From an uncultured Bacteroidota bacterium (GTDB lineage: Bacteria > Bacteroidota > Bacteroidia > B-17B0 > Aurantibacillaceae): a DNA stretch of 64,000 nucleotides. Every line of letters begins with the position of its first letter. Positions within the stretch are counted from its first letter, which is position 1. The translations under genes and the position numbers were made by a program. The stretch covers positions 62,001-126,000 of the forward strand of contig CAITNS010000079.1 in NCBI GenBank assembly GCA_903893815.1, written 5' to 3'. Positions 21,735 through 26,035 of the stretch are shown one piece after another. A model generated the notes under the pieces. The model had not been told where the DNA came from, did no database searches, and saw only the letters and a program-made list of their open reading frames with translations.

Positions 21735-22103
21735 GGGCCCGACCGGTTTTGACAGCGAGCGCGGTTGGTATGTAAGCAGGTGGTGCGTTGTGGATATGGC
21801 ACCCTAAACTCAACTCTCAAACTTTTATTCGGCGAAGAGAATTCTTACGCTATGGCTGCTTAGTCCAAGACTAACCAACCTTTGCAAACCTTGTAGCAAC
21901 GTTGCTTAGCGACGAGAATTTTGCATCATAAATTAGCAACTTGTTTCAGTGATGATGTTATCTGAAACAATATTAGCATCTAAGTTTAAGTTTGGTATGA
22001 ATATAAGCCTGACTTGAATCGAAAACCAATTATGTTCTAAACTTTGTAGAAAGCATATTAATTCCTTGTTTGGACGAGAGTTCGAATCTCTCCGGGTCCA
22101 CCA
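21735..22103 (+). ncRNA. ssrA: transfer-messenger RNA (tmRNA)
   Basis: The 5' end GGGCCCGACC and 3' end CGGGTCCACCA form a 7-bp acceptor stem (one G-T pair), and GAGTTCGAATCTC is the T arm. The resume codon GGC at 21831 opens a tag frame reading GEENSYAMAA, ending at TAG 21861-21863, with the hydrophobic AMAA tail recognised by tail-specific proteases. CCA is encoded at 22101-22103. tmRNA with SmpB rescues stalled ribosomes. Its 3' end is a classic integration target, and fragments resembling it recur at 23533 and 24948. Confidence 0.95.
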
Positions 22104-22145
22104 ATTGCAAATTCGCAACTTATTGCGGATTTGCAATTTTTTTTT
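22103..22145 (+). terminator. terminator of ssrA
   Basis: Long stem AATTGCAAATTCGCAA (22103-22118) / TTGCGGATTTGCAATT (22123-22138) with one mismatch, loop CTTA, then an eight-T run. It overlaps the putative integration core. Confidence 0.85.
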
Positions 22146-22158
22146 CTTTCAAATAAGC

Positions 22159-23271
22159 TTATGATTTCAATATGCGAATAAGATCGTTATTGATATAGAA
22201 AACTTCTTTCCCTTCTTGATGTGGTGATACAATTCCAATATCAGTTAATTCATGCATATATTTTGTAAGTGTAGTTCTACTTCTAACTTCTAGTAATTCA
22301 CCAATTTTTCTAGGTTTAATGTAAGGTTGCGAAAATAAAAGCTGATTAAGTTCTAAGCTATACCACTTTAATTTTCCTTTTGCATGTTGATGAGTAGCTT
22401 GCATCTGGCTTAAGATCTCATCAATTGTTTGATTTGTTTCCTTTGCCATTATTTCAACTGCAGTTAGCATATAATTCAACCAAGGCTTCCATGCATTTCG
22501 AGTTGTTACACCAGCTAAATTAGCATAGTAATCATCCTTATGATTTAAGATGTACTTACTTAAAAACAAAACTGGATGAGATAATAATTCTTGATGAACC
22601 AAGTATAGTAAATTTAATATTCTTCCTGTTCTTCCATTACCATCTGTAAAAGGATGTATAGCTTCCAATTGGTAATGACCAATAACCATTTTAAAAAGAG
22701 GATCAATGGGGTATTTCTTATGATCGTTTAAAAATTCAATTAAATTCTTTATTTTTTTCTCTATTACTCCAGTACCTCGAGGGGGTGTATAAATAATTTC
22801 TCCGGGTTTAAACTCACTTTGTCCCCTTTTAATTACGACTTGCGATTGAGGCGGACGAATACCCTGACGAGTGTTTTTAATTTGTTGAAATACTTTTACA
22901 ATTGTTGCTTCATCTAATTTGTTTTTTGATTTAATCGTATTGTATCCTTTCCATAAAGCTTCACGGTAACGAAGAACTTCTTTTGTTGCATTATCTGTTG
23001 CTTCTTCTCTTAGGGTATCTGAAACAGCTTTATAGAGTTCGTCATCTGTAGTAAAAATATTTTCTATTGCTGTTGATGTTTGTGCCTCTTGCAATGTTAT
23101 TGTGTTCACTAACATCGTTGGGTTTGGTATCCTCATAATATTTCTATTTAGCTCTGCTAAGGCCCTTGAGGCAATACCCCACTTTAACAATATATCTTTA
23201 TCAAATATGATGTCAGATGGTGGTAAGTCTGGCAAATCATTATATGGTATATTTCTATCGAATTTCTTCAT
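22159..23271 (-). CDS. Fic family protein (class II, N-terminal inhibitory motif)
   Basis: A 370-residue Fic-domain enzyme, expected to transfer AMP or another nucleotide phosphate to a target hydroxyl. The Fic motif is canonical, HPFTDGNGRTGR (H206-R217). The class II inhibitory helix is STAIEN (S66, E70, N71), matching (S/T)xxxE(G/N), so it should be auto-inhibited. A winged-helix-like C-terminus (IGELLEVRSRTTLTKYMHEL) probably binds DNA. It lies between the ssrA 3' end and a partial copy of that end at 23533, on the opposite strand to ssrA. Palindromes over its promoter suggest autoregulation. No antitoxin gene is adjacent. Probably acquired DNA. Confidence 0.9.
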   Translation of the reverse strand: MKKFDRNIPYNDLPDLPPSDIIFDKDILLKWGIASRALAELNRNIMRIPNPTMLVNTITLQEAQTSTAIENIFTTDDELYKAVSDTLREEATDNATKEVLRYREALWKGYNTIKSKNKLDEATIVKVFQQIKNTRQGIRPPQSQVVIKRGQSEFKPGEIIYTPPRGTGVIEKKIKNLIEFLNDHKKYPIDPLFKMVIGHYQLEAIHPFTDGNGRTGRILNLLYLVHQELLSHPVLFLSKYILNHKDDYYANLAGVTTRNAWKPWLNYMLTAVEIMAKETNQTIDEILSQMQATHQHAKGKLKWYSLELNQLLFSQPYIKPRKIGELLEVRSRTTLTKYMHELTDIGIVSPHQEGKEVFYINNDLIRILKS

Positions 23272-23275
23272 TTTT

Positions 23276-23380
23276 TATATGTCCATTATTTAGTTAAAAA
23301 TGAACATATAGCAAATATATGTTCAAATATGGACAAATACAAACTATATGTCCAATATTTTACAAAATATGGACATATAG
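23276..23380 (-). promoter_or_regulatory. promoter and multi-site operator of the first fic gene
   Basis: On the minus strand, TTTG (23343-23340) and TATATTTG (23319-23312) are 20 bp apart, a textbook promoter. Repeated TATATGTCC/GGACATATA half-sites cover it: CTATATGTCC (23344-23353) with GGACATATAG (23371-23380); GAACATATAG (23302-23311) with TATATGTTC (23316-23324), straddling the -7 box; and single half-sites at 23276-23284 and 23331-23335. The Fic protein's own winged helix is the obvious candidate binder. Confidence 0.7.
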
Positions 23381-23422
23381 TGATTTCGTGTTTATTTTTA
23401 GCTAAAAACTATACCTGACAAG

Positions 23423-23453
23423 TTTCTCATGTATAGTTTTTATACATGAGAAA
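23423..23453. other. perfect 13-bp hairpin between the two fic units
   Basis: TTTCTCATGTATA (23423-23435) and TATACATGAGAAA (23441-23453) are exact inverted copies around a GTTTT loop. It could end transcription coming from the second fic gene or be an element-end structure; no strong T tract follows on either strand. Confidence 0.55.
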
Positions 23454-23532
23454 ATACGCTCTTTTTCAGAGGAAACTTTAAATGCTTAAATATTGCTTTA
23501 ACACACTTATTTTATTGAGATCTTCAAGAAAA

Positions 23533-23600
23533 GAGTTCGAAAAAATGTCGGTGGAGTCCATCAATTGCAAATTCGCTTTTTATTACAGATTTAAGATTTT
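23533..23600. repeat. att-like partial copy of the ssrA 3' end (site 2)
   Basis: GAGTTCGAA (23533-23541) and CAATTGCAAATTCGC (23562-23576) are identical to the tmRNA T-arm segment (22078-22086) and to the sequence from its CCA end into its terminator (22102-22116). TCCA precedes the second block in both. The downstream bases ATTACAGATTTAAGATTTTT still resemble the ssrA terminator. This is the pattern left when an element integrates at the 3' end of ssrA. Five extra bases separate the blocks here. Confidence 0.7.
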
Positions 23601-23722
23601 TAATAATTTTAAAATCGATGCGATTTTATTTAAATCTTAAAAAAAGAATTCAAAGAATATCGGATGAGTCTATTACCTCTAGATCTCTTTTAAATAAAAT
23701 GATTTTGGTGACTTTGCAATTC

Positions 23723-24772
23723 TTAAAAATAAGTTTTGACAGCAAATTCAAATTGGTCTATAAAAATTTTCTTAAATGCGCTAATGTTATTTTGCTCGTA
23801 AAAAATCAACATAGCTTTTTTATAATCTATTGAATCAACCGTTCTAAATGAAATAGGGCAGTAGTTGTTATTTATTAATATTGCATTACTTATGATCCTA
23901 GCAGTTCTTTTATTACCATCTGCAAAAGCTTGTATGTAGGAAATTAAGACTAAAACAAACAATGCTTTTGTAAAAACATTATCTTGATGATTTACTAATT
24001 TGCATAGTTGCTCAAGAGCTTCTTTTATTTGAAATTCGTTATCCAATGGCTTGTAATTAGTTCCTGAAATACCAACCCGCCGCTTTCTAATGTTTCGATC
24101 GATGTCTAACTCTTTTACTAAAATACTATGAATATCCTCAATGCTTGATATTGTTAATGGTTTTATATATTTTGGATTTTTAATAATAAAATCTAAGGCA
24201 GCCTTATGATTTAAAAGCATAGTTGCTTCGTCTTTCGTTTTTCCAGAAGCTGTTTCTTTTTCTTTTAATAATCGTTCTGTTTCTAACAAGGAATATGTAT
24301 TACCTTCAATTTGAGAAGACTTCCAACTTAAGTCAATCGCCAATCTTTCAAGCTCTTTTTTATATTCAGAATCAGTAAGTTTTAATGTGTTTTCTTTATA
24401 CTGATTTTGTAGGTTATTTAAATAATTAATTTCCTCATTTGTAAATACAGATACTTTGTTTAACGTTTCTGCTATTAGTGAATGATTAAAATTATTTTTA
24501 ATATCCCTTTCATCAATCTCTTTTTGAAAATATTCATCAACATCAACAAAACGAATGAGTTCATAGGCTTCACTTATTTCATATTTAGTACTTTTTCCGT
24601 TACCGGAAACAGTAATCAAGTTTTCTGCTAATAAAAGTTTAATAGCTCTTTTAATGGTTGCATAAGCGAAATCATTTTTTAAATCTTCATGAATTTCCTT
24701 TGAAGAACATAAAGGATTTAAATTGATAAAATTTAAAATTAATTTTTTTATATCTTTATTTGATTTAGCCAT
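23723..24772 (-). CDS. Fic family protein with atypical Fic motif and N-terminal winged helix
   Basis: A 349-residue Fic-domain protein. The N-terminal 70 residues look like a winged helix (CSSKEIHEDLKNDFAYATIK). A class II inhibitory helix follows, SSQIEG (S152, E156, G157). The Fic motif reads QAFADGNKRTAR (residues 281-292), so the catalytic histidine of HxFx(D/E)GNxRxxR is glutamine while the phosphate-binding loop is intact. It may be unable to transfer nucleotides by the usual mechanism. It is not a close copy of the first fic gene. It lies between att-like sites 2 and 3 and has its own palindromic operator. Confidence 0.88.
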   Translation of the reverse strand: MAKSNKDIKKLILNFINLNPLCSSKEIHEDLKNDFAYATIKRAIKLLLAENLITVSGNGKSTKYEISEAYELIRFVDVDEYFQKEIDERDIKNNFNHSLIAETLNKVSVFTNEEINYLNNLQNQYKENTLKLTDSEYKKELERLAIDLSWKSSQIEGNTYSLLETERLLKEKETASGKTKDEATMLLNHKAALDFIIKNPKYIKPLTISSIEDIHSILVKELDIDRNIRKRRVGISGTNYKPLDNEFQIKEALEQLCKLVNHQDNVFTKALFVLVLISYIQAFADGNKRTARIISNAILINNNYCPISFRTVDSIDYKKAMLIFYEQNNISAFKKIFIDQFEFAVKTYF

Positions 24773-24784
24773 TGTAACTATTTG

Positions 24785-24860
24785 TAGCTCACAAATATAC
24801 TATTTATAGCTCAATATTGTCTTGTATTGAGCTACATTTTTAAATTATTTGAGCTTAATT
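24785..24860 (-). promoter_or_regulatory. promoter and palindromic operator of the second fic gene
   Basis: On the minus strand TATATTTG (24799-24792) is a perfect -7 box 20 bp before the ATG. TAGCTCAATA (24807-24816) and TATTGAGCTA (24825-24834) are exact inverted copies just upstream; further TAGCTCA (24785-24791) and TGAGCT (24850-24855) half-sites flank them. The sequence differs from the operator of the first fic gene. Confidence 0.65.
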
Positions 24861-24947
24861 GAGAGTGATTAAATCTAAAATTACTGTTTTTTATTCTTCA
24901 AAAGTAACCTATAAAAAACAGATAATTTATTGATTTCCAGGTAAAAA

Positions 24948-24984
24948 GAGTTCGATAATAAGTCCTTAGACTCCACCAATCGCA
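24948..24984. repeat. att-like site 3, degenerate copy of the ssrA 3' end
   Basis: GAGTTCGA (24948-24955) and TCCACCAATCGCA (24972-24984) match the tmRNA T-arm and CCA end with one mismatch. It aligns to site 2 without gaps over 36 bp, with the same block spacing, and lies 1415 bp from site 2, against 1455 bp from ssrA to site 2. Confidence 0.55.
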
Positions 24985-25032
24985 GCCATTAAAAGTAAAT
25001 TTGAAATATCAGATGAAGAGAATAAAATTAAA

Positions 25033-25350
25033 ATGTTATTTCCTGACAGTTGCTTTAAAAGCTTGAATCAAGCAATTATATCTGGAGTTCTATGTAAAAT
25101 AACAAATTATACATGTAAACCTACTTCTGAGTTTCAAATGACATTAATGATTATTACATTGTCAAAAGGTTCAAATGAAACAAGTATTATAAATATTTTA
25201 CATAACTATTTCCCTAATATTGATAGTGCGCAAGAATTTAAAGCAGGGAAACTCGAAGGATTAATATATCAATCCTACTCTTGTGGAGTTCCTGTTGAGA
25301 ATTTTATTGGAATTAGTAAAAATAAGATTTATCACTATACTGAAACATGA
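25033..25350 (+). CDS. uncharacterised ORF, 5' part of a split reading frame
   Basis: A 105-residue frame from ATG 25033. The frame is open further upstream, to codons overlapping att-like site 3 (24970), so the natural start may have been lost. It has a short conserved-looking cysteine/tyrosine stretch (LIYQSYSCGVPVENFIGIS) but no recognised domain, signal peptide or membrane helix. It ends at TGA 25348-25350, yet the next ORF continues in exactly the same frame after four codons. It may be a fragment of one interrupted gene. Family unknown. Confidence 0.45.
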   Translation: MLFPDSCFKSLNQAIISGVLCKITNYTCKPTSEFQMTLMIITLSKGSNETSIINILHNYFPNIDSAQEFKAGKLEGLIYQSYSCGVPVENFIGISKNKIYHYTET

Positions 25351-25362
25351 TGCGGAGATAGT

Positions 25363-25803
25363 TTGAGTGTTAAGGAGTCTAATTTGAAAAACTTGTTGTT
25401 TGATGCAAAAAGTCAAAATCTAAGAACTCTTTTGATAAATAAAACAGAAAAAAACGAATCAGCAACCAATAAGAAGAATCCCTTAAAAACAAATGAGCCA
25501 AAAGAAGATTTGATTCTCACCGCTATTTCATCAGAAAATAACAATAGTATCAGAATAGATATCGCATTTAAAGTATACAAAATAAATACGGATACAGTTC
25601 TCTATTTTGTAAGACAACAGTATTATGCTTTGGAGTCTACCTTTCAGAAATCTATAGCTTGTGATTTTAAAAAAGGTATATCAAAAGAAATAATTTCCTA
25701 TCCAAATATTTGCTATTCGGTAAAATTATTTAAAAAAAGTTCGGATATTAATCCTTATAAATCTATAGTTATTTCCTACACTGTTAATAACGAACGGAAA
25801 TAG
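25363..25803 (+). CDS. uncharacterised ORF, 3' part of a split reading frame
   Basis: A 146-residue frame from a TTG at 25363, in the same frame as the preceding ORF and 12 bases after its TGA. Read through, the two give one polypeptide of about 255 residues or more. The second half has a lysine/asparagine-rich linker (KTEKNESATNKKNPLKTNEP), then a beta-rich part (DIAFKVYKINTDTVLYFVRQ). No known domain is recognised. No start better than TTG exists, which favours a stop-interrupted gene over two genes. Probably part of the accessory region after ssrA. Confidence 0.45.
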   Translation: MSVKESNLKNLLFDAKSQNLRTLLINKTEKNESATNKKNPLKTNEPKEDLILTAISSENNNSIRIDIAFKVYKINTDTVLYFVRQQYYALESTFQKSIACDFKKGISKEIISYPNICYSVKLFKKSSDINPYKSIVISYTVNNERK

Positions 25804-25921
25804 TATGTCCAAAAGGAGCGTTATTTAAACCCTGTTCAATTCCTTTTAAAGATTACATTGTAACTTTTGGAAAGGAACGATCAGCGCTAGCTAATCTCTC
25901 TTTTTGTATATATCTTCGATA

Positions 25922-25994
25922 CTTCGACTGTGCTCAGGAGCCGCCACAACGACTGATTGAAATTTAGGACACTTAGAATAGAGGAATAGAAGTG
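25922..25994. repeat. CTTCGACTC-type palindromic repeat, copy 2 (degenerate)
   Basis: CTTCGACTGTGCTCAGGAGCCG, then GATTGAAATTTAGGACACTTAGAAT, then GAATAGAAGTGC. It follows the layout of the copy at 19506 (left arm, GAGCCG, GATTGAAA, GGACACT, right arm ending GAAGTG) with decay in the right arm. Confidence 0.55.
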
Positions 25995-26035
25995 CACCGT
26001 TTTTAACTAATCTTAAATCAACCCAATTTTTATAA

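Follow-up and report, generated by a model that had tools for sequence, protein, structure and literature searches.

Among the described systems closest to the locus considered here are the ssrA islands of Dehalococcoides. A gene for a 540-residue serine recombinase, the CcrB-like integrase DsiB, is reported there on the reverse strand adjoining attL, and an integration module is present in 16 of the islands and absent from 15, the staphylococcal cassette chromosome (SCC) being the stated model (PMC3146451). Integrase genes that contain their own attP are documented in phage Mx8, where integration gives int a new 3' end (PMC6070905), and in the SSV-type integrases (PMC4383910), as far as the accessible portions of these papers go. 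The Islander paper, within its available text, names both Mx8 and SSV, limits the term 'integrase' to tyrosine recombinases and describes serine-family integrases as not known to target tRNA genes (PMC4383910). Here we analyze the region behind ssrA, the transfer-messenger RNA (tmRNA) gene, of an uncultured bacterium of the Aurantibacillaceae (Bacteroidota; GenBank assembly GCA_903893815.1, contig CAITNS010000079.1, positions 62,001 to 126,000), the whole stretch of 64,000 nucleotides being referred to as the window. It holds three elements of the large serine recombinase (LSR) type that lack an LSR: a fresh one with a Fic-domain gene (Fic-A), a worn one with a second Fic gene, and a pseudogene remnant. 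These very probably constitute a stack of integrated elements descended from LSR integrative elements that had the 3' end of ssrA as their attachment site.

The array behind ssrA

The array is organized as follows, in coordinates of the window:

21735 to 22103, plus strand: ssrA (tmRNA), recognized by ARAGORN and Rfam; the left half of attB is formed by its 3' end, with the shared core TCCAC at 22097-22101
22102 to 22146, plus strand: head of element 1, a terminator-like inverted repeat starting directly behind the core and, by its position, the right half of attP
22159 to 23271, minus strand: Fic-A, 370 aa, SoFic-type cargo of element 1, with Fic_N, Fic and SoFic-like_C
23478 to 23561, minus strand: tail of element 1, consisting of the codons for the native C-terminus of an LSR now lost (MDSTDIFSNSFLEDLNKISVLKQYLSI*); attR/attP left half, its core being TCCAT at 23557-23561
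23562 to 23603, plus strand: head of element 2, a degenerate repeat resembling head 1
23723 to 24772, minus strand: second Fic gene, 349 aa, cargo of element 2, Fic domain only
24881 to 24976, minus strand: tail of element 2, in which the codons for the LSR C-terminus are worn (VESKDLLSNSFYLEINKLSVF..*), with the core TCCAC at 24972-24976
24988 to 25803, plus strand: remnant of element 3, a pseudogene of the 307-aa cargo gene of the G084 array, with its start missing and split in two frames
25873 to 26030, no strand: native chromosomal flank, where homology to the ssrA-downstream region of the empty G070 resumes

Element 1 thus spans from 22102 to the core at 23561 and element 2 from there onward to 24976. 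The first tail is perfect and the second worn, and no tail was found behind the remnant of element 3 in a motif scan of the window; such a rise of decay with distance from ssrA would be expected if newer elements enter beside ssrA.

An earlier note on this DNA had described three att-like repeats at ssrA with a single minus-strand Fic gene of unlike layout in each interval, and both observations hold. Three matches to the two-block pattern GAGTTCGA..TCCAyCAATyGCA lie in the window (22078-22109, 23533-23569 and 24948-24984), as against none in 40 dinucleotide-shuffled windows, and the two intervals indeed each carry one minus-strand Fic gene, the first encoding Fic_N, Fic and SoFic-like_C and the second a Fic domain only. 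The derivation of the second and third repeats from the ssrA 3' end, as supposed in that note, has to be given up: they are instead the left half of attP, made up of codons for the LSR C-terminus. In a scan with an LSR-tail protein motif made without the window's own sequences, these two sites are the best matches of the window (56.9 and 23.3 bits), compared with 8.2 bits for the third-best match and a maximum of 18.1 bits over 40 shuffled windows. Common to them and ssrA are the TCCAC core and the head of the next element; GAGTTCGA and TCCA.CAAT.GCA are shared, the spacing and the middle differ, and the likeness to the ssrA end is only partly a matter of common descent. The second-site pattern GAGTTCGAAAAAATGTCGGTGGA, with at most 3 mismatches, was recovered at 22 places in 16 of the 87 family genomes, and the reversed pattern at none in the same genomes; two of the 22 (in G011 and G055) lie inside a purD-like gene and were set aside. 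As to successive insertion of cassettes at ssrA, the idea survives for small elements and fails as a one-gene rule, as the elements carry one or few genes; likewise the single Fic gene per interval is a property of the window, and elsewhere the cargo differs.

Insertion boundary, tails and recombinase genes

The closest relative by ssrA (G070, 99%; G numbers denote compared genomes and L numbers loci) shares two aligned stretches with the window, one covering ssrA as far as 22105 and the other running from 25873 across the PD40 gene. The intervening segment measures 3,767 bp in the window versus 133 bp, with its own terminator-like repeat, in G070, and a search of the G070 stretch recovered neither of the two Fic genes. 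Flanks to the right of tails can similarly be traced to the region behind ssrA of other genomes: in G053, where about 36 kb separate ssrA and tail, the flank corresponds to bases 1-216 behind the G005 ssrA (70.5%), and in G036 to bases 1-96 behind the G073 ssrA (79%). Taken together, the empty site and the flank matches place the insertion point at TCCAC, the final bases of the tmRNA gene ahead of CA. The earlier note had proposed looking in relatives for empty sites and for other genes before like repeats; the former are represented by G070 and by the unoccupied ssrA sites of G005 and G073, and the latter by the different cargo of other genomes.

Read on the minus strand from a GTG, the complement of the CAC in TCCAC, the tails encode V-[DE]-S-T-D-I-F-S-N-S-F-x-E-D-L-x-x-L-x-x-L-K, part of a conserved peptide of about 28 residues (VDSTDIFSNSF.EDL..L..LK). 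In 32 non-redundant tails the third codon position is the most variable (p = 8e-6 versus position 2 and 4e-4 versus position 1), with the reservation, which counts against this result, that the set was picked by peptide score and so favors amino-acid conservation; in 21 of the 32 a stop follows at codon 27-31. A fairer and weaker test, on the codons outside the pattern in 20 tails chosen by DNA alone, gave p = 0.03 and 0.005, with two tails that look like chance hits kept in the set. A profile of 16 tail peptides recovered 44 places in 29 of 87 genomes at E < 1e-4 (hand count; the 16 source tails among the 44 match by construction), and all the tails found by it lie in open frames of at most 128 codons; a pattern scan of public genome contigs (16 stretches) added further tails (L122 and L130). 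At four loci the tail peptide is preceded in frame by LSR C-terminal sequence, namely in G067 (E 1.5e-10 for the match of the fragment to LSRs), G048 (1.2e-5), G038 (9.8e-18) and a Flavobacteriales metagenome-assembled genome (5.5e-10). As LSR sequence continues into the tail at these loci, the tail is the native LSR C-terminus, which places attP inside int and implies that integration swaps the last ~28 residues for codons from antisense ssrA.

The corresponding LSR genes are found at ssrA itself. Three frames were read at each of 73 ssrA ends (72 of 75 genomes having an ssrA match), and in 10 of the 72 genomes (G010, G011, G013, G022, G034, G042, G048, G050, G053 and G058) the ssrA 3' end is crossed by a minus-strand open reading frame (ORF) that is 200 codons or longer and lies in one and the same frame in all 10; the other two frames never exceed 90 codons. 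Each of the 10 has matches among the other LSRs of the set (37-86%), 7 of them are longer than 500 codons, and the three encoded proteins that were scanned match the Resolvase, Recombinase and Zn-ribbon models, the last below the cut-off in two. An alignment of six LSRs, with identities of 24-38% to the first, shows the ssrA-coded VDP..FE..SK at the end of every one, and the inverted repeat followed by T's directly behind ssrA falls, by reading, within the coding end of int. Nor is the phenomenon confined to ssrA. Among the family LSR loci, taken as the best match per genome at E <= 0.001 (30 of 57 genomes; 30 loci, 2 cut off), 21 of the 28 readable ones overlap the antisense 3' part of a tRNA gene (Leu, Val, Arg, Ser, Cys, Lys and Met) or of the tmRNA gene, two of these overlaps being only 6 bases long. 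The proportion is 5 of 24 readable loci for the same class outside the family (29 loci, 5 cut off; best matches at E <= 1e-12, so that the family and class groups were not drawn alike) and 4 of 57 on viral contigs (80 loci, the best 80 of 209 LSR relatives, 23 cut off); all 30 overlaps in the three groups are antisense. What the sequences themselves show is the insertion boundary, the identity of the tail with the LSR C-terminus and the passage of LSR genes through ssrA.

Several further features were observed around these target genes. A second copy of the ssrA 3' end (AATCTCTCCGG.TCCAC) lies about 200-300 bp behind ssrA in G025, G035 and G032, and a like copy lies about 160 bp behind tRNA-Arg in G002 (all of them in L059, L066, L069 and L098); these copies end a spacer with palindromes. 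Mini-elements devoid of genes extend from ssrA to a tail over about 0.32 kb in G059 (L053), where 86 codons of the head remain open in the LSR frame, and about 0.46 kb in G031 (L216); both look like deletion products. The ssrA of G075 (L029/L034, G075:C58:135694-135982) is without query positions 85-167, around the tag-coding part, possibly an assembly fault, and in G040 and G042 (L111, L200) ARAGORN gives the tmRNA tag as ATKLKIGLI* instead of GEENSYAMAA*, probably a misplaced tag call.

Cargo genes

The genes enclosed by these elements are diverse. The G002 unit behind tRNA-Arg, closed by the same kind of tail, carries a redoxin and a PAS-SpoIIE protein; the three-tail array of G025 an FAD oxidoreductase and FG-GAP proteins; the G036 unit a TPR-SpoIIE protein; the G084 unit an Oxidored_FMN enzyme, an HxlR regulator and the intact 307-aa protein; the G038 unit a DUF4143 ATPase that matches the candidate system PDC-S01; and the G058 unit a transglutaminase-like protein. 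The weak-tailed G048 unit behind tRNA-Phe carries a protein of the type IX secretion system (T9SS) type, and secreted proteins are also among the cargo of other elements. Of seven other cargo proteins scanned for defense models, five gave no match and two only generic TPR or CARF matches.

In other genera, Fic-A recurs behind ssrA (G025, G040), behind tRNA-Arg (G032) and at orphan ssrA-like ends (G038, G049), and is also present in G030 and G084. Its DNA in the window is 98.5% identical over 395 bp to that of G049, a member of another genus with an ssrA identity of 84%, and 89.6% identical to that of G025 (ssrA 79%); the much closer relationship of Fic-A than of ssrA in the case of G049 is read as lateral spread. 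The usual Fic motif is HPFx[DE]GN[GK]R, and Fic-A carries HPFTDGNGR. In the second Fic protein (23723-24772), IQAFADGNKRTAR is present at the position of this motif, and the catalytic His seems, from the sequence, to be replaced by Gln. Fic-A matches the PADLOC SoFic model (E 1.8e-100) and scores 348.7, under the cut-off of 550, with the NCBIfam SoFic equivalog; the Fic of the G080 unit matches SoFic as well (E 3e-114). SoFic is reported to be an anti-phage protein that acts by abortive infection (PMC12249575). In the neighborhood of such units, a RelA/SpoT-domain protein that matches the candidate defense PDC-S33 adjoins the G035 Fic unit (L066 11377-12696, plus strand), and tandem repeats of about 105 bp with GGAGAGATC..AATCTCC palindromes are found upstream of the G030 Fic-A unit (L103 1-400).

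Integration model, alternatives and relation to known systems

The free form of these elements would carry attP within int, about 28 codons ahead of the stop. Strand exchange at the common TCCAC core would join ssrA to the 3' part of int, so that int would now end in codons supplied by antisense ssrA (VDP..FE..SK*) and would enclose the terminator-like repeat that follows ssrA. The native last ~28 int codons would remain at the far end as the tail, forming the right end of the element. In the window elements int would have disappeared, leaving a terminator-like head, a single cargo gene and the tail. With one ssrA used repeatedly as the target, the newest elements would come to lie closest to it, and any movement today would depend on an LSR supplied by another element. 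What we infer from these arrangements is the reaction as such, the order in which the elements entered, the disappearance of int and an action in trans. A wider interpretation is tentative: in Bacteroidota a broad class of LSRs might target tRNA and tmRNA 3' ends with int lying across att, each integration swapping a conserved, helix-like C-terminal tail (Leu at 15, 18 and 21) for antisense codons as a switch that dampens the activity of the integrase or alters its direction, with int supplying the terminator of the target RNA, and int-less single-gene derivatives, some of them defense genes, riding along as cassette arrays.

A number of observations weigh against descent of the array from LSR elements at ssrA. 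The head of element 1 has 6 open codons in the LSR frame and is not LSR-coding, and neither head 1 nor head 2 has the appearance of LSR-coding sequence; the right attP half of both elements may be dead, and the window units are, with head 1 no longer coding, possibly immobile now. A PF07508 search of the window's own genome (99.99% complete) found no LSR, so that movement would need help in trans; this agrees with the earlier note, which had seen no integrase aboard and suggested action in trans, and fits either such action or loss. Among the ssrA-spanning ORFs that of G050 is interrupted by a stop, those of G011 and G058 run off their contigs and that of G013 has a foreign N-terminus. Early stops in the tails of G084, G040 and G038 indicate that some tails are dead, the G048 unit behind tRNA-Phe has a weak tail with the core GTCTGC (E 0.35), and the Fic-A unit of G000 bears the tail type of the other Fic in G080 and G035, pointing to recombination between units as well. 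In G025 and G035 it is the second ssrA-end copy, about 200 bp behind ssrA, that precedes the Fic cassette, not ssrA itself, and the 2.5-kb element of G036 begins at the last 57 ssrA bases at a contig end, with a full ssrA on another contig, so that it may sit at an orphan end. The compared genomes are mostly drafts, G049 being 66% complete. A motif scan of the 80 viral loci (the best 80 of 209) found no native tail, and no free circular form was seen in the viral, plasmid and phage searches, in which the ends of the plasmid and phage matches were not read; these searches recovered only distant LSRs (at most 34% identity for viral and 22-27% for the plasmid and phage matches listed).

An integron-like system, in which the ssrA end would be attI and the tails attC sites folded as single strands and acted on by a tyrosine recombinase, would account for arrays in which every unit has a single conserved site and one or a few genes, and whose gene content varies among genomes. 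This reading was dropped after attC-type folding was not found: when both strands of 24 tails were folded, the z-scores versus shuffles ranged from -2.5 to +1.6, without consistent excess. With the tails protein-coding and the enzyme that adjoins the same junction in frame an LSR, it is scarcely credible. Somewhat less remote, and still improbable, is that the array consists of decayed islands of ssrA-targeting tyrosine integrases, with repeats that are degenerate 3'-end copies, the usual signature of tRNA islands. A 441-aa tyrosine integrase behind ssrA in G017 speaks for it, and thereby against the LSR, as do copies of the ssrA 3' end 46 kb (G017) and 15.5 kb (G032) away; these copies, however, are 96% identical over 26 bases to the ssrA end of the window, whereas sites 2 and 3 are unlike it, differ in spacing and middle and match the LSR C-terminus. 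The loci G017:C24 and G032:C55 (L068, L069) are themselves conventional islands at ssrA. Tyrosine integrases were also considered as the enzyme and rejected: PF00589 is present in 87 of 87 family genomes, in counts without evident link to the tails by eye, and the seven C-terminal ends that were read have what we take to be a Xer-like look.

It could also be asked whether the tails are small antitoxin-like genes of Fic, spread by homologous recombination of ssrA flanks and not by site-specific insertion. The 27-codon frame of the window begins with ATG upstream of Fic-A, the conservation of the flanks is sufficient for recombination, and the SoFic of E. coli H397 has, in the available part of the source, an antitoxin gene of 47 residues, though downstream (PMC12249575). 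Tails, however, close units without Fic (redoxin, FAD oxidoreductase, TPR-SpoIIE, DUF4143 and others), they do not all open with a start codon (GTG, ATG, TTG, CAG, GCA), and at four loci the peptide extends upstream into LSR sequence, all of which renders this explanation extremely unlikely. Descent from LSR elements with attP inside int thus remains the favored explanation of the array.

A literature search covering titles and the starts of abstracts, without subscription papers and preprints, found no tRNA-targeting LSR class and no such cassette arrays in Bacteroidota. New here are the LSR genes that end inside tRNA or tmRNA genes (21 of 28 read in the family) and the single-gene cassette arrays. 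If confirmed, these would add a large number of new integrase/att pairs whose sites are universal and conserved, an integration-coupled alteration of the integrase protein that can be tested, and a route by which single-gene defense systems such as SoFic may spread.

Integrons are arrays of small cassettes, each of which ends in a conserved site. The arrays described here resemble them in this respect, but there is no folding attC, the sites are coding and an LSR is found at the junction. SCC elements form composite arrays and, like the present ones, include cargo elements without a recombinase; unlike the present system, SCC has a protein gene, rlmH, as target and uses two recombinases, and we know of no C-terminal swap of the integrase in SCC. 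Shared with SCC (CcrA/CcrB) are, going by the available sections of PMC3146451, the serine recombinase and the site-specific insertion of cassettes at one gene. The parallels with the Dehalococcoides islands, in that same source, are as follows: tandem elements behind ssrA, a serine recombinase there and many elements without the module. However, the Dehalococcoides repeat is a 20 bp copy of ssrA, with insertion in the T-loop, whereas here the junction is TCCAC and the repeat consists of integrase C-terminal codons; moreover, the present units go down to about 1.4 kb with one gene and belong to the phylum Bacteroidota. With Mx8 and the SSV-type integrases, to the extent of the accessible texts, the present elements share the location of attP inside the integrase gene, the enzyme here being an LSR. 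The system is thus distinguished by its combination of an LSR, a tRNA or tmRNA gene 3' end as target, an int-spanning attP and arrays of very small cargo elements.

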